8,587 nucleotides of DNA, taken from Chloroflexota bacterium (lineage in GTDB: Bacteria; Chloroflexota; Limnocylindria; Limnocylindrales; CSP1-4). The position numbers and the translations under genes were made by a program. Under the pieces are notes generated by a model that had not been told where the DNA came from, did not search any database, and saw only the letters and a program-made list of their open reading frames with translations. The stretch lies in NCBI GenBank assembly GCA_021777365.1, contig JAJYDP010000177.1, positions 1 through 8,587 of the forward strand, in the 5' to 3' direction. Below, in pieces: positions 2 through 8,587 of this stretch; positions within the stretch are counted from its first letter, which is position 1, and the number at the start of each line of letters is the position of its first letter.

Positions 2-256
2 AAGATCGAGAAGGCGAACCGGTATGCGCGCGAGACGGACCGGATCACGTTCCGGGCGCTCTCCCTGCAGTTCCGCGGTGACAACGACACGCACGACGTG
101 TCGCTCGATTCCGATGGGTGGCATTGCTCGTGCCATTTCTTCGACAACTGGAAGAGCTGCGTCCACGTGCTGACGCTCCAGAAGGTTCTGGGGAACATGC
201 TGCCCGAGGACGCCCAGACGTCGATCTTCGCCGCGGTCGAGGCGGCGGCGGTCTGA
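2..256 (+). CDS. Minimal SWIM zinc-finger protein, N-terminus cut off by window edge
   Basis: The frame is open from the window edge to a TGA at 254-256 and gives 84 residues. Numbered from the first complete codon, it contains Cys42-x-Cys44, eight residues, then Cys53-x-His55. This is the CxC...CxH signature of the SWIM zinc finger, preceded by Trp40-His41 and followed by a short hydrophobic helix ending in an Ala-rich tail. SWIM fingers bind Zn and mediate DNA or protein contacts; they occur in SWI2/SNF2 helicases and transposases and also as small stand-alone bacterial proteins. No other domain is visible, so the specific role is unknown. The segment before the finger (residues about 12-36) looks like a beta-rich lead-in. 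The protein may be small overall, but its start lies outside the window. It converges on the minus-strand lipoprotein gene. The open frame and the metal-ligand spacing are seen directly; the family name follows from the motif. Confidence 0.75.
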   Translation, partial: KIEKANRYARETDRITFRALSLQFRGDNDTHDVSLDSDGWHCSCHFFDNWKSCVHVLTLQKVLGNMLPEDAQTSIFAAVEAAAV

Positions 257-401: not shown

Positions 402-1319
402 CTATGCCGTCTCGGCCCCGCCCAGGAGCGAACCGTCGGCGGCGCTGATCCAGAGCACCACCTGGTGGGGCTCGTCGCCGGCCATCGCCTCGTACCGGAA
501 GGTGACCGCGTAGGCCAGGCGCAGCAGCGGTTCCGGAGCGTCCGAGAGCGAGGGATCCAGGAAGTTGTTCGGCCGCACCCAGATGAGCTCCGGCTCCGAC
601 TGGGAGAAGCCGGGCCGGCCGGTGAGCTGGCGCTGGGTCGCGAACGCGCTCGCCACCTCCTTCGCCCGGTCCGGCGGGATCGGGCTCGCCGGGGCGGGCG
701 CGGCCGGCGTGCCGGTCACGGTGACGGACTGGAAGGCGCCGCTCGCGGTGACGTCGACCACGGTCCCCTCGCCGGGGGCCGGATGGCCGTCGATCTCGCG
801 ACCCCAGGTGACCTCCCAGGCCTCGAGGCCGGGCTGCCAGCGGACCGAGGGCGACGCCTGCGGCAGCGCCAGGCCGAGGATCGCGGCGACCGCCCTGGCC
901 CGCCCCGGTGCCGTCGCGGCGGTGAGCGTGGCGGGTTCGCCGGCTCGCGGCGGGCCCAGGCGGATGATCGCGATCGGCGCATGCGTCTCGGTGTTCAGCT
1001 CCATCACGGTCGTGTCGCCCGACGGCGCCAGGAACTCCACGCGGTCGTAGTCCACGCCGCGCAGCATGTCCCGCTCCCGGACCGGGGCTGACGGGTTGCC
1101 CGGGATGCCGAGTGCGCGGGCGATCGCGACGGCACGGGCCTCCGCGGCGGATGCCTGGGTGGTGGTCTGCGGCAGGGCGCTCCACAGTGGATCACGGACG
1201 GTCCATCCGCGATCCTTCGCGCTCGACGCCTGGCAGGCGACGATCAGGAGCGGGATCGCGAAAACGAGGAGGGAGGTTGTCCGGCGCGGCGACCGGCGCA
1301 GATGCAGGAGTGCATGCAT
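402..1319 (-). CDS. Membrane-anchored lipoprotein with three PepSY/YcdB-like modules
   Basis: The product has 305 residues. The ATG at 1319 is chosen because AAGGAGG lies 5 nt upstream (1325-1331) and a signal peptide begins at once; the same frame stays open much further upstream, but only because GC-rich DNA lacks stops. The N-terminus has Arg residues at 8-13, a hydrophobic core at 17-28 and the lipobox Leu-Ile-Val-Ala-Cys29, so it should be lipidated and exposed outside the membrane. Three similar modules follow (about 58-120, 138-201, 217-301). Each has an Ala-rich helix and then strands with a Gly-turn, such as Trp168-Glu-Val...Val-Asp-Val-Thr-Ala-Ser-Gly and Leu268-Ala-Tyr-Ala-Val...Ala-Asp-Gly-Ser-Leu-Leu-Gly. 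This resembles PepSY/YcdB-type repeats found in peptidase propeptides and inhibitors. It is the second gene of a pair with the cysteine-peptidase-like gene, 11 nt apart. A role as inhibitor, chaperone or anchor of that protein is inferred, not shown. Confidence 0.75.
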   Translation of the reverse strand: MHALLHLRRSPRRTTSLLVFAIPLLIVACQASSAKDRGWTVRDPLWSALPQTTTQASAAEARAVAIARALGIPGNPSAPVRERDMLRGVDYDRVEFLAPSGDTTVMELNTETHAPIAIIRLGPPRAGEPATLTAATAPGRARAVAAILGLALPQASPSVRWQPGLEAWEVTWGREIDGHPAPGEGTVVDVTASGAFQSVTVTGTPAAPAPASPIPPDRAKEVASAFATQRQLTGRPGFSQSEPELIWVRPNNFLDPSLSDAPEPLLRLAYAVTFRYEAMAGDEPHQVVLWISAADGSLLGGAETA

Positions 1320-1324
1320 GGCGG

Positions 1325-1331
1325 CCTCCTT
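1325..1331 (-). promoter_or_regulatory. Shine-Dalgarno AAGGAGG overlapping the upstream stop codon
   Basis: On the minus strand the upstream gene ends in TGA (1333-1331), whose final A begins AAGGAGG, followed 5 nt later by the ATG at 1319. This fixes the lipoprotein start and places re-initiation right at the stop, so the two genes are probably translationally coupled. Confidence 0.8.
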
Positions 1332-2095
1332 CAGCGGCAGCGGGTGCAGGGAAGGGAGGGGATGGGAACGCCCGAGTACGTGTAGGTGCCCCACCAGTTC
1401 GGGACCGTGAGGCCCGACATGGGCGCGCTCCGGAGGGCGAGCTGGAACGATTCGCCCAGCCCGTGACCTGACTTGACGTACTTCCAGAACCAGGTCTCGA
1501 AGGACAGCATGTCGTTGGTCCAGGCCGTGCCCACGTAGCCGAGGAAGAAGCGGGGGCCCTGGTAGTTGGTGCCGTCCGACGTGCTGCGCGCCTTCTCGAT
1601 CCCGAACGCGCCCGGGAAGGTGGACGTCGATTCGCCCAGGTGACAGGTGGACGCGATCACCACGTTGGCCGACCGCACCGCCGTGGTGCCCGGCAACGTT
1701 CGCAGCGCGACGATCTGGTCCGCCGTGACGATCTTCTGCGCGCAGCTGCCGTTGTCCTCGCGGAAGCCCCAGCCCGTGGTGTAGTGGTCCCCGTGGCTGA
1801 AGACGTAGAAGCCGGCGTCCACCGGGACGCGCGAGAGCACCTTCGCGGCGGTGAAGGTGGTGGCCTCGAACGATGACGGCGCGTAGAGCATGAACTTGAA
1901 CCCATCCGTCGCCAGCGCACGGAGCTGCAGCGGGATGGTGGTGTTGATCCCGGCGCACGTCGTGAAGGCGGTCTTGTTGTCGTAGACGCTGCCCTGGTAG
2001 GCGGCCGCGGCCGGCCCGGCGGCCGCGGCGGCGGCGCCGAGCGCCAGCAGGAGCGGCAGGATCCGCTGCCACCCGGGCGTCCGACGGTGTCGCAT
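1331..2095 (-). CDS. Secreted clan CD (caspase/gingipain-like) cysteine peptidase homologue, putative
   Basis: The product has 254 residues. The ATG at 2095 has GGAGGAGG 5 nt upstream; an in-frame start 23 codons earlier has no signal-peptide character and is rejected. Residues 1-32 form a Sec signal peptide: Arg-rich start, Leu core at 13-19, Ala-rich tail ending near Ala32. The mature part shows two blocks typical of clan CD cysteine peptidases: a hydrophobic strand then Ser100-His101-Gly102 (Phe96-Tyr-Val-Phe before it), and a second strand Val145-Val-Ile-Ala-Ser-Thr150 then Cys151-His-Leu-Gly. A later Phe-Phe-Leu-Gly-Tyr-Val-Gly (183-189) and a Phe-x3-Phe...Gly stretch (199-219) resemble the segment after the catalytic Cys in gingipain and CHAT proteins. 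His101 and Cys151 are thus the candidate dyad. Four other Cys (47, 118, 250, 253) could form disulfides; the last two make a CxxC at the extreme C-terminus. Activity and substrate are unknown. It is first in an operon with a PepSY-like lipoprotein. Confidence 0.65.
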   Translation of the reverse strand: MRHRRTPGWQRILPLLLALGAAAAAAGPAAAAYQGSVYDNKTAFTTCAGINTTIPLQLRALATDGFKFMLYAPSSFEATTFTAAKVLSRVPVDAGFYVFSHGDHYTTGWGFREDNGSCAQKIVTADQIVALRTLPGTTAVRSANVVIASTCHLGESTSTFPGAFGIEKARSTSDGTNYQGPRFFLGYVGTAWTNDMLSFETWFWKYVKSGHGLGESFQLALRSAPMSGLTVPNWWGTYTYSGVPIPSLPCTRCR

Positions 2096-2100
2096 CGATA

Positions 2101-2108
2101 CCTCCTCC
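2101..2108 (-). promoter_or_regulatory. Shine-Dalgarno GGAGGAGG deciding the peptidase-like start
   Basis: The minus-strand GGAGGAGG ends 5 nt before the ATG at 2095. It selects that start over the in-frame ATG at 2164 and places the signal peptide at the N-terminus. Confidence 0.8.
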
Positions 2109-2455: not shown

Positions 2456-3229
2456 GTGTCGGCGTCGCCCACGGTGCCGCGCGATGCGATGACCGCCGGT
2501 CCCCCGGGACTGGCGGCAGGTTCCGCCCGGCCGGCGCAGGGACCCGGAGCCGCGCTCGCGCCGCGCCGCGCCCGGCGTCCCCGCGAGGAGGAGCTGCGGC
2601 GCACGTCGGTCCGCCTCTTCCGCGAGCACGGCTATCACGGCACCTCGATGCAGGACCTTGCCGAGGCCCTGGGGATGCACCGGGGCAGCCTCTACCACTA
2701 CATCGACTCGAAGGAGGACCTGCTCTTCGAGATCGTCGAGTCGGCGATGGCCCGGTTCCACGCGGAGGTGCGCCCCATCCTCGAGGGCGACGCGCCCGCC
2801 CCGGACCGCCTCCGCCGGGCCGTGGCGGCCCACCTCGCGATCGCGGCCGAGGAGCCGGACGAGCTCACGCTCCTCCAGGTCGAGGTCAAGGCGCTGGCGC
2901 CGGAACGCCGCGACCGCATCCTCGCCGAGCGCGACGGCTACGAGCACGCATGGCGCCTCTTCATCCGCGAGGGGATGCGTGACGGCTCGTTCGGCTGCGA
3001 CGACGAGCGCACCGCGGGCTTCATGATCCTGGCCGCCTGCAACTGGTTCAGCCAGTGGTACCACCCGGCCGGACCGCTCGGGGTGGACGACTTCGCCACT
3101 CGCTTCAGCGATCTGTTCCTCGACGCGCTCCGCGCCGCCCCCGCCACGGATGCCGCCCACTGGGGCGGCTCTCCCGGCGGAAACCCCGACCCACTGTCTG
3201 CGTCCGCCACCCATGCCCTGGAGCCGTGA
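2456..3229 (+). CDS. TetR-family transcriptional regulator of fatty-acid degradation (FadR/KstR2-like)
   Basis: The product has 257 residues. The GTG at 2456 is preceded by GAGG with a 5-nt gap. An in-frame ATG at 2489 (Met12) lacks a ribosome site but is possible. After about 40 Ala/Pro/Arg-rich residues comes a TetR_N helix-turn-helix domain (about 44-91): Leu54-Phe-x3-Gly59-Tyr-x2-Thr63-Ser, Leu68-Ala-x3-Gly73, then Gly77-Ser-Leu-Tyr80-His-Tyr and Lys86-Glu-Asp-Leu. The helical ligand-binding half ends with Asn-Trp-x2-Gln-Trp-Tyr-x3-Gly-Pro-Leu, as in regulators of the KstR2/FadR type that sense acyl-CoA. Its stop is one base from the fadN start, so it is co-transcribed with the enzymes and probably represses itself through the palindrome at 2391-2416. 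The family is clear; acyl-CoA as ligand is inferred from the operon. The N-terminal extension is longer than usual for TetR proteins. Confidence 0.9.
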   Translation: MSASPTVPRDAMTAGPPGLAAGSARPAQGPGAALAPRRARRPREEELRRTSVRLFREHGYHGTSMQDLAEALGMHRGSLYHYIDSKEDLLFEIVESAMARFHAEVRPILEGDAPAPDRLRRAVAAHLAIAAEEPDELTLLQVEVKALAPERRDRILAERDGYEHAWRLFIREGMRDGSFGCDDERTAGFMILAACNWFSQWYHPAGPLGVDDFATRFSDLFLDALRAAPATDAAHWGGSPGGNPDPLSASATHALEP

Positions 3230-3230
3230 G

Positions 3231-5699
3231 ATGACCATGGTTGCCGCCCCATCGAACGCCACCCTCCCGGCCGCCCTCCCGCGCCTCCGCCGCGCCGTCG
3301 TGCTCGGCGCGGGGACCATGGGAGCCCAGGTGGCCTGCCTGCTCGCCGGGCGCGGGGTGCCCGTCGACCTCCTGGATCTCGACGCGCCCACCGCGCGGGG
3401 AGGCCTCGACCGGGCGCGGAAGCTGTCGCCCTCGCCCCTCTACCTCCCCGAGGACGCGGAGGCAATCGCCCCGGCCGGGTTCGACTCGCTCGAGTCCTGC
3501 GTCGCGCGCGCCGACTGGGTGCTGGAGGCGGTGGTGGAGCGGCTCGACGTGAAGCGCGAGCTGCTCGCGCGTGTCGCCGCCGTGCTGCCCCCGGACGCAC
3601 TGCTCAGCACCAACACCTCGTCGCTCTCCGTGGCCGCCATGGCCGACGCGCTGCCGGCCCCGGTGGCGGCACGGTTCCTGGGCACCCACTTCTTCAACCC
3701 GCCGCGCTACGCGCGACTCGTCGAGCTGGTGCCCGGCCCCGCGACGGCCCCCGCGACCATGGCCAGGGCCCGTGCCATCGCGGCGGACGTGCTGGGCAAG
3801 GGGGTCGTGGACGCCCAGGACGCGCCCGGGTTCATCGTGAACCGCCTGGGCACCCAGGCGTCGCTCGCGGCGCTCGCGCTGGCGCAGGAACTCGGGCTGG
3901 GCATCGACGAGGTGGACGACCTCGCGGGCCCGCTGACCGGGCGGCCGAAGTCGGCGGTCTTCCGGACGATCGACCTGGTCGGGCTGGACGTCTTCGCCGC
4001 CGTGGTCGGGAGTCTCGCGGCCGCGGTGCCGGCGGACGATCCCGAGCGGGAGCTGTTCCGCCTGCCGCCCGTGATGGCCACCATGCTCGAGCGCGGGATG
4101 CTCGGGGTGAAGGCTGGGGGCGGGTTCTTCCGCAAGGAGGGCGACGAGATCCTCGCCCTCGACCTGGAGACGCTGGCCTACCGTCCGCGTCGGCACCCCC
4201 GCAGCGGGGTGGTGGAGATGGCCCGCCAGCTGGGCGACCTCGGGAAGCGTCTGCGGGCGCTGCTGGACGGCCCCCGCTCCGACGTGCCGGCCGCGTTCGT
4301 GCGGCGGAGCCTGGTGCGGTCGCTCTGGTACGCCGCGGCGGTCTCGCCGGGGACCGCCGGCTCGGTGGCGGACGTCGACCGGGCGATGCGCTGGGGGCTC
4401 GGCTGGGAGCGCGGCCCCTTCGAGACATGGGACGCGCTCGGTGTCGACCGCGTCGCCGCGCTGCTCCAGGAGGAGGGGCTCGAGGAGCCGCCGCTCGCGC
4501 GCGCGGCCCGGGAGGCGGGCGGGTTCTACGCTCCCGACGGTGCGTGGCAGCTGGACCTGGCGCGCTTCCGGCCCGCCGCGGCGTCGTCCGCCGGCGGGCC
4601 GTCGGCCTCCGGCGACGCGGCCGTGGAACCCCCCGGCGCGCCGTCGTCCGCCGGCGGGTCGTCTGGCGACGGCCGGGTGCCGGTCCCGCCGAGGCCGCGC
4701 GTCGTGCAGCTGGGCCGCGTCCGCGCCGAGCGCGGGGCACTGGCCGGGAACGGCGCCGCGAGCCTCGTCGAGGTGGACGGCGCGCTGGTCCTGGACCTGC
4801 ACGGCAAGTACAACATCATCGGCCTCGACACCATCGAGATGCTGGGGCGCGCCACGACGACCGCCGAGGAGCGCGGGCTCCCCCTCGTGGTCGGGACGGA
4901 CGCGGCCGACTTCTCCGCCGGCGCCAACCTGGCCCTCCTGCTCCTCGAAGCCGAGGACGACGAGTGGGACGAGCTGGACCGCGTGGTCCGGCGCTTCCAG
5001 ACCACCGGGCGCGCGTTCCGCTCCGCGCAGGTGCCCGTCGTGGTGGCCATCCGCGGCCGGGTCCTGGGCGGCGGTGCGGAGCTCGCCGTGGCCGGCGACC
5101 GGGTGCAGGCCGCCGCGGAGACGTACATGGGGTTCGTGGAGCTCGGGATGGGGCTGATCCCCGCGGGCGGCGGATCCACCGAGATGGCCCGCCGTGCCGC
5201 GGAGCGCGACCCGGGCGGGACGTGGGCGGACGCGTTTCCCGCGTTCGCCGCGGCGTTCGAGGCGATCGCGACGGCGAAGGTGAGCACCAGCGCCGCCGAC
5301 GCCCGGCGCCTGGGGCTGCTGCGGCCCGAGGACGGGATCAGCGCCGACCCGGACCGGGTGATCGCGGACGCGATCACCGTGGCGCGAGCCCTCGCCGAGA
5401 CCGGCTACCGGCCCCCGCTGGACCGGCCGATCCGGGTGCTCGGGCGCCGGGGGATCGCGGCGGCCGAGTCGCTGACCCACAACCAGCTGTCGGGCGGCTA
5501 CGTGAGCGCCTACGACCGCGAGCTGGCCGTGTCGCTGGCCCGGGTCATGTGCGGCGGCGACGTGCCGGAAGGGACGGAGGTCGGCGCCGACCACCTCCTG
5601 GACCTCGAGCGAGAGACATTCCTCCGCCTGCTGGGCCAGGCGAAGACCAGGGACCGGATCCGCGGGTTCCTCCGCACCGGCAAGCCCGTTCGGAACTGA
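3231..5699 (+). CDS. fadN: 3-hydroxyacyl-CoA dehydrogenase/enoyl-CoA hydratase fusion (FadN type)
   Basis: The product has 822 residues and carries out steps two and three of beta-oxidation: hydration of 2-enoyl-CoA and NAD-dependent oxidation of 3-hydroxyacyl-CoA. The ATG at 3231 follows the TetR stop by one base, with GGAG 7 nt upstream; in-frame ATGs at 3150 and 3213 lie inside tetR and are rejected. A Rossmann fold comes first (Gly26-Ala-Gly28-Thr-Met-Gly31), with Ser126-Thr-Asn-Thr-Ser and the catalytic pair His153 (Gly-Thr-His-Phe-Phe-Asn-Pro) and Glu165. The 3HCDH C-terminal domains follow from Pro-Gly-Phe201-Ile-Val-Asn-Arg to about 420. A crotonase domain (about 505-790) has oxyanion-hole segments Phe561-Ser-Ala-Gly-Ala-Asn and Leu612-Gly-Gly-Gly-Ala. 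Both catalytic Glu are present, 617 and 637, with the same 20-residue spacing as in mitochondrial hydratase. Dehydrogenase-before-hydratase order distinguishes it from FadB/FadJ and matches Bacillus FadN. An Ala/Ser/Gly/Pro linker (about 445-500) joins the halves and contains an internal duplication. Confidence 0.93.
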   Translation: MTMVAAPSNATLPAALPRLRRAVVLGAGTMGAQVACLLAGRGVPVDLLDLDAPTARGGLDRARKLSPSPLYLPEDAEAIAPAGFDSLESCVARADWVLEAVVERLDVKRELLARVAAVLPPDALLSTNTSSLSVAAMADALPAPVAARFLGTHFFNPPRYARLVELVPGPATAPATMARARAIAADVLGKGVVDAQDAPGFIVNRLGTQASLAALALAQELGLGIDEVDDLAGPLTGRPKSAVFRTIDLVGLDVFAAVVGSLAAAVPADDPERELFRLPPVMATMLERGMLGVKAGGGFFRKEGDEILALDLETLAYRPRRHPRSGVVEMARQLGDLGKRLRALLDGPRSDVPAAFVRRSLVRSLWYAAAVSPGTAGSVADVDRAMRWGLGWERGPFETWDALGVDRVAALLQEEGLEEPPLARAAREAGGFYAPDGAWQLDLARFRPAAASSAGGPSASGDAAVEPPGAPSSAGGSSGDGRVPVPPRPRVVQLGRVRAERGALAGNGAASLVEVDGALVLDLHGKYNIIGLDTIEMLGRATTTAEERGLPLVVGTDAADFSAGANLALLLLEAEDDEWDELDRVVRRFQTTGRAFRSAQVPVVVAIRGRVLGGGAELAVAGDRVQAAAETYMGFVELGMGLIPAGGGSTEMARRAAERDPGGTWADAFPAFAAAFEAIATAKVSTSAADARRLGLLRPEDGISADPDRVIADAITVARALAETGYRPPLDRPIRVLGRRGIAAAESLTHNQLSGGYVSAYDRELAVSLARVMCGGDVPEGTEVGADHLLDLERETFLRLLGQAKTRDRIRGFLRTGKPVRN
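4583..4658 (+). repeat. In-frame 60-bp-period repeat in the FadN interdomain linker
   Basis: GTCGTCCGCCGGCGGG occurs at 4583-4598 and again at 4643-4658. The 60-nt period equals 20 codons, so both copies encode Ser-Ser-Ala-Gly-Gly (residues 452-456 and 472-476). This suggests that the flexible linker between dehydrogenase and hydratase grew by duplication. Confidence 0.7.
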
Positions 5700-5704
5700 A
5701 GGAG
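5699..5704 (+). promoter_or_regulatory. Shine-Dalgarno AAGGAG overlapping the fadN stop codon
   Basis: The last base of the fadN TGA (5697-5699) starts AAGGAG, which lies 6 nt before the fadA ATG at 5711. It decides the fadA start and implies coupled translation. Confidence 0.8.
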
Positions 5705-5710
5705 CGAGCG

Positions 5711-6991
5711 ATGCGCGACGCCGTCATCGTCAGCGCCGTCCGGACCGCCGTGGGGCGGGCCCCGCGCGGCGCGCTGCGCGAGACCCGCGCCGACGAGCTG
5801 GGCGCGGCCGCGGTGCGGGAAGCCGTGGCCCGCGTCCGAGGGCTCGACCCGGCCGAGGTGGAGGACGTGGTCCTGGGCTGCGCCATGCCGGAGGGCGAGC
5901 AGGGGCTCAACGCCGCCCGGCCCGTCGCGCTGGCGGCGGGGCTGCCGGTCAGCGTCTCCGCCATGGTGGTGAACCGCTTCTGTGCCTCCGGGCTGCAGGC
6001 ACTCGCCATCGCCACCCAGGCCGTGGCGTCCGGGCAGGCCGACGTGGTGGTCGCCGGCGGCATGGAGTCGATGAGCGCGGTCCCCATGACCGGCCACCAC
6101 TTCTCGCCGAACCCCGGGCTCACCGCCGCGTGGCCCGACGTCTACCTCTCGATGGGGCTCACCGCGGAGGAGGTGGCCCGGCGGTACGGCGTCTCCCGGG
6201 AGGAGCAGGACGCCTGGGCCCTTGCCTCGCACCGCCGGGCCGCGGCCGCCCAGGACGCGGGCCGCTTCGCCGACGAGGTAGTGCCGGTGGTGATGCGCCG
6301 GACCACCGTGAACGGCGGCCGGCCGCGCGTCGAGACGGCGGAGTTCGCCGCCGACGAGGGGATCCGCCGCGATACCGACGCGGCGGCGCTGTCGGGTCTT
6401 CGCCCGGTCTTCGCTCGCGGCGGGACGGTGACCGCGGGGAACAGCTCCCAGATGAGCGACGGGGCGGCGGCCATGGTCGTGATGACCGGCGAACGTGCCG
6501 CCGCGCTCGGCCTGCGGCCGCTGGCGCGGCTGGTCGCGTTCGCCACCGCCGGCGTCTCGCCCGAGATCATGGGGATCGGTCCGGTGGAGGCCGTGCCGCG
6601 GGCGCTGCGGCAGGCCGGGCTCTCGCTCGCCGACATCGACCTGGTCGAGCTCAACGAGGCGTTCGCGTCCCAGGTGGTGGCGGTGGTCCGCGCGCTGGGA
6701 CTCGACGAGGCCCGGACCAACGTCAACGGCGGGGCGATCGCCCTGGGGCATCCGCTGGGCGCCACCGGCGCCAAGCTCTCCACCCAGGTGATCCACGAGC
6801 TCGCCCGGCGCGGGGCGCGCTACGGGCTGGTGACGATGTGCGTGGGCGGTGGCCAGGGGGCGGCCGGGATCATCGAGCGGCTCGACGGCGATCCGTTCGA
6901 GCAGGCGGCGCGGGCGCGGGCCCGGTGGGCCGCCGAGCGTGGCACGACGCCCGGTGGGACCGGGACCACGGAAGGGGAGGCGGCGGCATGA
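5711..6991 (+). CDS. fadA: Acetyl-CoA acyltransferase (3-ketoacyl-CoA thiolase)
   Basis: The product has 426 residues. It catalyses the last step of each beta-oxidation round, thiolytic cleavage of 3-ketoacyl-CoA by CoA to acetyl-CoA and a shortened acyl-CoA. The N-terminus is the usual Asp-Ala-Val-Ile-Val-Ser-Ala-Val-Arg-Thr-Ala-Val-Gly. The nucleophilic Cys91 sits in Asn-Arg-Phe-Cys-Ala-Ser-Gly. Asn315 is in Glu-Leu-Asn-Glu-Ala-Phe, His347 in Ala-Leu-Gly-His-Pro-Leu-Gly, and the acid/base Cys377 in Met-Cys-Val-Gly-Gly-Gly-Gln-Gly. All catalytic residues are therefore present. The gene lies 11 nt after fadN, and its stop overlaps the next start in ATGA. After the canonical end near residue 391 there is a tail of about 35 residues, charged and then Gly/Thr/Ala-rich, which most thiolases lack. 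Operon context favours a degradative thiolase over a biosynthetic acetoacetyl-CoA thiolase. Confidence 0.93.
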   Translation: MRDAVIVSAVRTAVGRAPRGALRETRADELGAAAVREAVARVRGLDPAEVEDVVLGCAMPEGEQGLNAARPVALAAGLPVSVSAMVVNRFCASGLQALAIATQAVASGQADVVVAGGMESMSAVPMTGHHFSPNPGLTAAWPDVYLSMGLTAEEVARRYGVSREEQDAWALASHRRAAAAQDAGRFADEVVPVVMRRTTVNGGRPRVETAEFAADEGIRRDTDAAALSGLRPVFARGGTVTAGNSSQMSDGAAAMVVMTGERAAALGLRPLARLVAFATAGVSPEIMGIGPVEAVPRALRQAGLSLADIDLVELNEAFASQVVAVVRALGLDEARTNVNGGAIALGHPLGATGAKLSTQVIHELARRGARYGLVTMCVGGGQGAAGIIERLDGDPFEQAARARARWAAERGTTPGGTGTTEGEAAA

Positions 6992-8587
6992 CCGAGGTGA
7001 GCGAGCGAGCCACGGCGGCCGAATCGGACGCCGGAACGCCCGCAGCGTCGGGCGGCGCGGCGGGAAGCGGCCGGCCGGCGGTCCCCGGCGGGGCCTTCGT
7101 GGTGCGGGCGGCCGAGCCCCCGGACGTCTTCACGCCGGAGCGGCTCGACGAGACCCAGCGCGCCATCCGGGACGCGGTCCGCGAGTTCGTGACGCACTCC
7201 GTCGCCCCCCGCCAGGAGGCGGTCGAGGCGCGGGACTACGGGGTGCACCGGGCGCTCCTGGCCGAGCTCGGCGAGCAGGGCTACCTGGGCGTCGACGTGC
7301 CCGAGGCCTACGGGGGCGCGGGCCTGGACAAGGTCACCTCCCTGCTGGTCAGCGAGGGACTCGCCGAGGCTGGGAGCCTGGCCGTCACCTACGGGGCCCA
7401 CGTGGGGATCGGGACGCTGCCGCTCGTCTTCTTCGGGACCGACGAGCAGCGGCAGCGCTGGCTCCCCGGCCTGGCGGACGGGTCGATCGTCGCGGCCTAC
7501 GCGCTGACGGAGCCCGGCGCCGGGTCGGACGCGCAGGGGATCCGCGCGCGGGCGGACCTCTCGGAGGACGGCACCCACTACCTGCTCAACGGCACCAAGC
7601 AGTTCATCACCAACGCCGGGTTCGCGGACCTCTTCACCGTCTACGCCAAGGTGGGCGGCGAGCAGTTCACCGCCTTCCTCGTCCCGCGCGACACGCCCGG
7701 CCTCACCATCGAGGCCGAGGAGCACAAGCTGGGGGTGCGCGGCTCCTCCACCTGCGCCCTCACGCTGACCGACGCGCGCGTGCCGGTGGAGAACGTGCTG
7801 GGCGAGATCGGCCGCGGCCACATCGTCGCGTTCAACGTCCTGAACGTCGGCCGCTTCAAGCTGGCGGCCGGCTGCCTGGGCGGGATGCGCCCGACCATCG
7901 ACCGGGCGATCGCGTACGCGACCGATCGCCGCCTGTTCGGCCAGCGGCTGCTGGACCTGCCGCTGACCCGCGAGCGGATCGCGACCATGGCGGAGCGCAC
8001 CTTCGCGGTGGAATCGGTCACCTACCGGAGCGCCGGGCTGATCGACACGCTCCTCGCGGGGGCGCACGGGGAGCCGGAACGCGCGCGCGCGGCCCTGGAG
8101 GAGTATGCGATCGAGTGCTCGATCGCCAAGGTGCTGGCCTCCGACGGCCTCAACGTGGTGGTGGACGACCTGCTGCAGCTGATGGGCGGCTACGGGTACG
8201 TGGAGGACTCCGGGGTCGCCGGCCTGTACCGGGACGCGCGAATCCACCGCATCTGGGAGGGGACCAACGAGGTCAACCGCCTGCTGGTGCCCGGGATGCT
8301 GCTGCGTCGCGCGATGCGCGGGCGGCTCGACCTGCTCGGCCCGGCCAAGCGGGCGGCCGACGCGCTCCTCGCGCCCGAGCCGCCGGTGGAGGACGGCGCG
8401 CCCCTCGAGGAAGAGCTGCGCCAGGTGCGGGCCATGCGGACCGCGCTGCTGGTGGCGGCGGGCGCCGCCGTCCAGCGCTACGGCGAGCGGCTGGAGGACG
8501 AGCAGGAGGTCCTCTACCGGGTCGCGGACCTGGCCATCGCGCTCTTCGCCGCCGAGTCGTCGGTGCTGCGGGCACGGGCGTCGGGCG
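6988..8587 (+). CDS. fadE: Acyl-CoA dehydrogenase, C-terminus cut off by window edge
   Basis: The frame stays open for 533 codons to the window edge with no stop. The ATG overlaps the fadA TGA (ATGA), and GGAGG lies 7 nt upstream. The enzyme is an FAD-dependent dehydrogenase that turns acyl-CoA into trans-2-enoyl-CoA, the first step of beta-oxidation, and passes electrons to ETF (not encoded here). After about 45 Ala/Gly/Pro-rich residues come the N-terminal helical domain, the FAD-contacting Leu173-Thr-Glu-Pro-Gly-Ala-Gly-Ser-Asp181, Gly202-Thr-Lys-Gln-Phe-Ile-Thr-Asn of the middle beta domain, and the C-terminal helical domain with Gly-Gly-Tyr-Gly-Tyr. The catalytic Glu424 is in Ile-Trp-Glu-Gly-Thr-Asn-Glu. 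About 100 further helical residues after this motif point to the long FadE/VLCAD-like type (Bacillus FadE is roughly 590 residues), so only a short C-terminal part is probably missing. The assignment as FadE rests on family plus the fadN-fadA-fadE order. Confidence 0.92.
   Translation, partial: MTEVSERATAAESDAGTPAASGGAAGSGRPAVPGGAFVVRAAEPPDVFTPERLDETQRAIRDAVREFVTHSVAPRQEAVEARDYGVHRALLAELGEQGYLGVDVPEAYGGAGLDKVTSLLVSEGLAEAGSLAVTYGAHVGIGTLPLVFFGTDEQRQRWLPGLADGSIVAAYALTEPGAGSDAQGIRARADLSEDGTHYLLNGTKQFITNAGFADLFTVYAKVGGEQFTAFLVPRDTPGLTIEAEEHKLGVRGSSTCALTLTDARVPVENVLGEIGRGHIVAFNVLNVGRFKLAAGCLGGMRPTIDRAIAYATDRRLFGQRLLDLPLTRERIATMAERTFAVESVTYRSAGLIDTLLAGAHGEPERARAALEEYAIECSIAKVLASDGLNVVVDDLLQLMGGYGYVEDSGVAGLYRDARIHRIWEGTNEVNRLLVPGMLLRRAMRGRLDLLGPAKRAADALLAPEPPVEDGAPLEEELRQVRAMRTALLVAAGAAVQRYGERLEDEQEVLYRVADLAIALFAAESSVLRARASG

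Follow-up and report, generated by a model that had tools for sequence, protein, structure and literature searches.

A conserved gene pair in Limnocylindrales-type Chloroflexota encoding a candidate caspase-fold peptidase and a PepSY-type partner

The two genes and their predicted products

The subject of this study is a pair of genes in an 8,587-nucleotide stretch of DNA, here called the window, which comprises positions 1 to 8,587 of contig JAJYDP010000177.1 (assembly GCA_021777365.1) from a Chloroflexota bacterium of the order Limnocylindrales. The first gene encodes a candidate exported cysteine peptidase of the caspase fold; the second starts 11 bases downstream on the same strand and encodes a predicted lipoprotein with three PepSY-type modules, referred to as the partner. 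Coordinates are collected in Table 1. An initial annotation, made from the sequence alone, had described two exported proteins in tight adjacency, and the reading frames, the short gap, a peptidase signal judged by eye and the partner lipobox at Cys29 bear this out. A promoter and terminator scan reported no terminator-like site between the two genes and nothing convincing otherwise (0 promoter-like sites; 1 terminator-like site, on the opposite strand). We infer that the two genes are co-transcribed.

The predicted structure of the peptidase is a confident caspase-type (clan CD) model with six main strands. Clan CD enzymes carry the catalytic His at the C-terminal end of strand 3 and the catalytic Cys at that of strand 4 (PMC4357240); in the model, His101 follows the third strand (95-100) and Cys151 the fourth (145-150), the two being neighbouring strands of the core. 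The solved structures that match the model best belong to clan CD, with 7-14% identity among the matches listed. His101, Gly102 and Cys151 are identical in 33/33 aligned sequences and Asp103 in 32/33, Gly102 being the glycine that clan CD has beside its catalytic His. The alignment consists of the window protein and 32 of 60 loci (among them L001, almost a copy of the window, and L028, whose frame is truncated). These residues are also among the invariant columns of a 44-row alignment, A1, for which P0043 and P0047 were excluded from the 45 proteins. The His-Gly and Cys blocks of the initial annotation thus stand, with their codons as placed, and so, at the level of a model, does its caspase-like fold.

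At E <= 10, none of Pfam, NCBIfam, PHROGs or PADLOC has a family that matches the window peptidase, and the curated cut-offs of the named families C11, C13, C14, C25 and CHAT are not reached; among its relatives, CHAT is found weakly in 2/27 (best E 0.0027) and C25 weakly in 2/27 (best E 0.0044). A sequence search of solved structures with the peptidase and partner alignments returned weak rows only (best E 0.92 and 0.15, respectively). The protein begins with a hydrophobic Sec-type signal, recognized by eye, that closes with AAAA-YQ, and a disulfide between the conserved Cys47 and Cys118 is possible.

At its C-terminus (window 1331-1345), the peptidase carries a P-C-x-x-C motif whose cysteines, C250 and C253, hardly vary across the 44 rows of alignment A1. 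The motif is not essential to the family, because in eight same-family genomes the peptidase stops ahead of it. Selenocysteine was considered and rejected: TGA is the C-terminal end in those eight genomes (L125-L132) and in L020, and it is internal only in L123. The latter (G007:C21, around 4100-4820) is a second copy of the peptidase, a paralogue with 39% identity to that of the window, which has an in-frame TGA where the conserved Cys47 stands; it may reflect gene decay or a fault in the assembly.

Each of the three partner modules is predicted to adopt the alpha-beta4 fold of PepSY and FTP domains. The top structural match is the PepSY-containing C-terminal domain of YpeB, which aligns across all three modules, and the model also matches propeptides of secreted metallopeptidases. 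The three PepSY modules of the initial annotation are accordingly upheld by predicted fold and by the YpeB alignment, and not by curated sequence profiles: the window partner matches 0 families in Pfam and PADLOC, does not reach the Pfam cut-off for PepSY or FTP, and gives one chance-level NCBIfam row (E 0.21) and, for residues 21-69, one PHROG of unknown function (E 0.0089). Among partner relatives, FTP is detected weakly in 10/61 (best E 0.0064) and PepSY in 1/61 (best E 0.0084).

The partner is predicted to be lipid-anchored in the window's genus. Because the strict lipobox pattern occurs in only 19/45 partners, lipid tethering is not general, and the proposal that the partner is tethered at the cell surface by lipid holds for some lineages and fails as a common feature. 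Two lipoboxes among the 19 (L091 and L092) look doubtful, and three further partners (L064, L078 and L093) look like near misses. The others begin with a plain hydrophobic stretch, and an export signal of some kind seems general.

Distribution and co-inheritance of the pair

A profile search of named genome contigs yielded 48 peptidase loci, with Chloroflexi- or Chloroflexota-type names throughout; those named Limnocylindrales or Aquidulcis, and one named Thermoflexus, we take to belong to Chloroflexota. A partner homologue lies directly downstream in 45/48 loci, and in the remaining three (L068, L107 and L108) the record ends too soon for a call. In a class-wide set of 177 genomes, the peptidase was found in 52, the partner profile in 54 and both in 51. 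Absences in this set are less certain than presences, because at most 15 peptidase and 12 partner candidates were scored per genome. The partner-only genomes are G025, with a weak match (E 7.5e-4); G045, with a relative that stands alone; and G074, whose partner starts at base 28 of the contig. In the peptidase-only genome, G065, the match begins at base 3 of the contig on the minus strand.

The partner is directly downstream, on the same strand, at 53/57 peptidase places in the 177 genomes (the two halves of one interrupted frame in G066 are counted separately). Three of the four exceptions (G002:C22, G065:C201 and G071:C132) are at contig ends, as judged from match positions and contig records; at the fourth, G007:C21, 355 bases are left, and the next frame, which was unscored, has a signal-like start. 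The adjacency is conserved across genera and two families, which was one of the checks proposed in the initial annotation. The chance estimate for the pairing (1e-39) ignores relatedness and is of no use as a probability. The pairing is not a matter of chance: the two-gene module is real and is conserved across a bacterial order.

The range of the pair seems limited to Chloroflexota of the Limnocylindrales type. Among 400 genomes drawn evenly from the phylum, with only 5 or 6 candidates scored per genome, the peptidase profile was found in 18, all within this order, and the partner profile in 25, including 7 weaker matches outside the order (best E 7.3e-10). The protein database gave 196 relatives; those with names are nearly all Chloroflexota, some labelled Limnocylindrales or Aquidulcis, and one of the 120 listed, P0081, is labelled Candidatus Dormibacteraeota, which speaks against so narrow a range. 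One Aquidulcis genome has the whole pair twice, on separate contigs and each time with its own partner (L097 and L100). The locus labelled Thermoflexus hugenholtzii (L102) has a partner and gap that resemble those of Aquidulcis records, and the label may be wrong.

Both genes are under purifying selection: pairwise ratios of nonsynonymous to synonymous substitution (dN/dS), from five comparisons per gene with signal regions excluded, range from 0.14 to 0.46 for the peptidase and from 0.20 to 0.37 for the partner. The trees of the two proteins mirror each other (r = 0.93 for 38 of 45 pairs, seven having been excluded by hand), whereas the maximum of 1000 permutations was 0.18. Neighbours differ by lineage and the pair persists. 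A third conserved gene was sought and rejected, other neighbour clusters being present in at most 27/48 loci, with antisense frames mixed in, compared with 45 for the partner. Ten neighbour frames were scanned; by lineage they include phosphoglucose isomerase, phosphomannomutase, FecCD, a periplasmic binding protein, a glycosyltransferase and an MFS protein, and 4 are without a match. A mobile origin was likewise rejected: the peptidase has no match in phage or plasmid records, and of 7 pattern matches in viral contigs none was confirmed as a relative.

At nine places (L115-L122 and L124) in 8 genomes, a partner-type relative stands in a fetched stretch that contains no peptidase; solitary members thus belong to the PepSY-like family as well. 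Several of these solitary lipoproteins have an additional cysteine pair. The idea that they stand beside another hydrolase was rejected, since 20 neighbouring frames from 7 loci (all but L116 and L124) contained no peptidase. The nine of these 20 frames with a Pfam match comprise GNAT, urocanase, MFS, GTP cyclohydrolase I, a PLP (pyridoxal phosphate) enzyme, aromatic amino acid lyase, PIN, an ATPase and alanine racemase N.

The remainder of the window contains a divergent gene group (2456-8586, plus strand) with a TetR-type regulator and a 3-hydroxyacyl-CoA dehydrogenase/enoyl-CoA hydratase protein (Pfam), followed by thiolase-like and acyl-CoA dehydrogenase-like frames recognized by eye; the group looks like a fatty-acid breakdown operon. 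Converging on the pair from the other side is the C-terminal end of a protein (2-256, plus strand), with a SWIM zinc-finger match below cut-off (E 0.16).

Table 1. Positions in the window of the two genes and their features
Feature	Position	Strand	Description
Peptidase gene (gene 1)	1331..2095	minus	254 amino acids; exported caspase-fold (clan CD type) cysteine peptidase candidate
Partner gene (gene 2)	402..1319	minus	305 amino acids; predicted exported lipoprotein, three PepSY-type modules
Intergenic gap, 11 bases	1320..1330	minus	AGGAGG at 1325-1330, five bases ahead of partner-gene ATG
Ribosome-binding-like GGAGGAGG, purine-rich	2101..2108	minus	ahead of peptidase-gene ATG; read from sequence
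Export signal, about residues 1-32 of peptidase	2000..2095	minus	by eye; low-confidence model segment
His101 of peptidase, presumed catalytic, codon CAC	1793..1795	minus	end of strand 95-100 (model); 33/33 rows
Cys151 of peptidase, presumed nucleophile, codon TGT	1643..1645	minus	end of strand 145-150 (model); 33/33 rows
Cys47 of peptidase, conserved	1955..1957	minus	32/33 rows, remaining row a gap
Cys118 of peptidase, conserved	1742..1744	minus	33/33 rows
Lipobox Cys29 of partner	1233..1235	minus	LIVA-C29, sequence
Partner module 1, residues 53-121	957..1163	minus	model
Partner module 2, residues 137-202	714..911	minus	model
Partner module 3, residues 216-304	408..674	minus	model

Possible roles of the partner

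On balance, we think it somewhat probable that the two genes form an exported-hydrolase/PepSY-partner module, organized like SleB-YpeB but with a caspase-fold peptidase, in which the partner binds and restrains the enzyme in trans. This reading builds on the modelled fold of each protein, the conserved dyad, the purifying selection on both genes, their strict adjacency and their joint inheritance; it supposes co-transcription, proteolytic activity, binding, inhibition or help in folding, and eventual release. The three outcomes that the initial annotation had set against itself (no caspase sheet or a dyad held apart, no PepSY fold, no pairing) did not occur, the folds being judged from the models and the dyad from its place at the ends of neighbouring strands.

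The peptidase would be proteolytic through its His101/Cys151 dyad. Because of the precedents of SleB-YpeB and of the PepSY propeptides of M4 peptidases, the partner can be viewed as a trans stabilizer and probably an inhibitor. In such a scheme, the newly exported peptidase would be bound in trans by the partner, as PepSY propeptides act on M4 enzymes in cis and YpeB acts on SleB; the bound partner would keep the peptidase stable, quiet and near the membrane; and removal or cleavage of the partner would end the restraint. By analogy, the partner probably stabilizes, silences or positions the peptidase, and a regulatory link from partner to peptidase is likely. The more specific proposal, that a PepSY-type protein is the dedicated trans inhibitor and stabilizer of an extracellular caspase-fold cysteine peptidase, is plausible while falling short of probable. 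An implication, if it is true, is that PepSY control is not limited to metallopeptidases and a cell-wall hydrolase but also covers clan CD, and that there is a PepSY-controlled peptidase family with no curated name. PepSY-type restraint would be an unfamiliar way of holding a caspase-like enzyme, and may represent an unrecorded form of extracellular control.

Several observations weigh against restraint in trans. The N-terminal region of YpeB was the best inhibitor of SleB in vitro, and the present partner is without that region; the C-terminal PepSY residues of YpeB, which are the partner-like part, gave no cross-link to SleB. Curated PepSY and FTP profiles are weak on partner relatives and silent on the window partner, and partner-type relatives occur without a nearby peptidase in 8 genomes. 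Shared vertical descent alone would give much of the mirror-tree signal.

It is also conceivable, if unlikely, that the partner is a chaperone or stabilizer only, an external propeptide that folds or holds the peptidase without inhibiting it. Such a role would agree with YpeB, whose C-terminal PepSY region is nonetheless required for stabilization despite the missing cross-link; the PepSY propeptides of M4 peptidases, on the other hand, were inhibitory where examined (PMC4282423). The partner might instead be a dedicated substrate, whose cleavage passes a signal or releases something from the membrane. The strict one-to-one pairing would fit an enzyme and its substrate equally, YpeB is proteolysed during germination (PMC13393411), and another PepSY protein, YycI, acts as a regulator of a two-component system (PMC4282423). 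We regard this as improbable: the fold is matched best by a hydrolase partner and by propeptides that inhibit, and no conserved cleavage linker was identified, no detailed search having been made.

That the genes are adjacent by history only, with no joint function, appears very improbable. The solitary partner-type relatives are what such a history might leave, and some neighbour genes are likewise common to related loci, but none of the neighbour clusters approaches the partner in frequency and the neighbours vary between lineages. Least credible to us is a toxin and immunity pair, in which the peptidase, once exported, would harm other cells nearby and the producer would be shielded by the partner on its own surface. 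The patchy presence (52/177 genomes), the export of both proteins and the lipid anchoring of the partner in some lineages are consistent with this scenario; it is at odds with the parallel trees of the two proteins, the purifying selection on both genes, the lack of a match in phage, plasmid or viral-contig collections or in PADLOC, and the failure of Pfam to detect a toxin-delivery domain in the window peptidase.

Comparison with known systems

The closest analogue of the module is SleB-YpeB, the spore cortex-lytic enzyme of Bacillus and its PepSY partner; the hydrolase is exported, one operon encodes both, and each is needed for the stable presence of the other (PMC6660665). Its gene order, a hydrolase gene followed by a PepSY-type partner gene, is that found at 53/57 places here, and both SleB and the membrane-held YpeB are exported from one conserved operon. 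At germination YpeB is broken down, and SleB may thereby be set free (PMC13393411). SleB, however, cuts peptidoglycan and is not caspase-like, and YpeB has the N-terminal region that the present partner lacks. The window locus is not SleB-YpeB itself, because eight genomes of the window's genus are without a match to the Pfam PepSY models or to PF14620 (YPEB_PepSY1-2; 0/8), whereas control genomes match the former and the control Bacillus subtilis the latter.

PepSY modules have been proposed as regulators of peptidases outside the cell, and PepSY-only proteins were mostly without a known role at the time of that paper (PMC4282423). Here, a likely target gene of such a protein lies next door and is kept across two bacterial families. 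The FTP/PepSY propeptides of M4 and M36 peptidases act in cis on zinc enzymes, whereas the module described here is a separate protein beside a cysteine peptidase. Like the present partner, SspA of Streptomyces is an exported PepSY-module lipoprotein; it differs in having two modules and in being recognized by Pfam, and no paired peptidase is mentioned in the available part of its description (PMC4282423).

With clan CD (caspases of C14, gingipains of C25, legumain of C13, separase and CHAT), the modelled peptidase has in common the fold, the placement of the dyad and the Gly next to His; unlike the named families, it has no curated family match. The word PepSY is absent from a survey of caspase homologs (PMC3501461), and a search of open-licence literature by title produced nothing on a caspase-fold cysteine peptidase with a PepSY-type protein as its neighbour.

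The staphopain-staphostatin pair offers a further parallel, with a cysteine protease and its inhibitor encoded in one operon. The folds of that pair differ from those of the present one, and its inhibitor stays cytoplasmic. The pairing, which had been called unusual at the outset, is so in one respect: a PepSY partner beside an exported hydrolase is already known from SleB-YpeB, whereas we found no description of one beside a caspase-fold peptidase, a kind of enzyme that the literature searched does not connect with PepSY.
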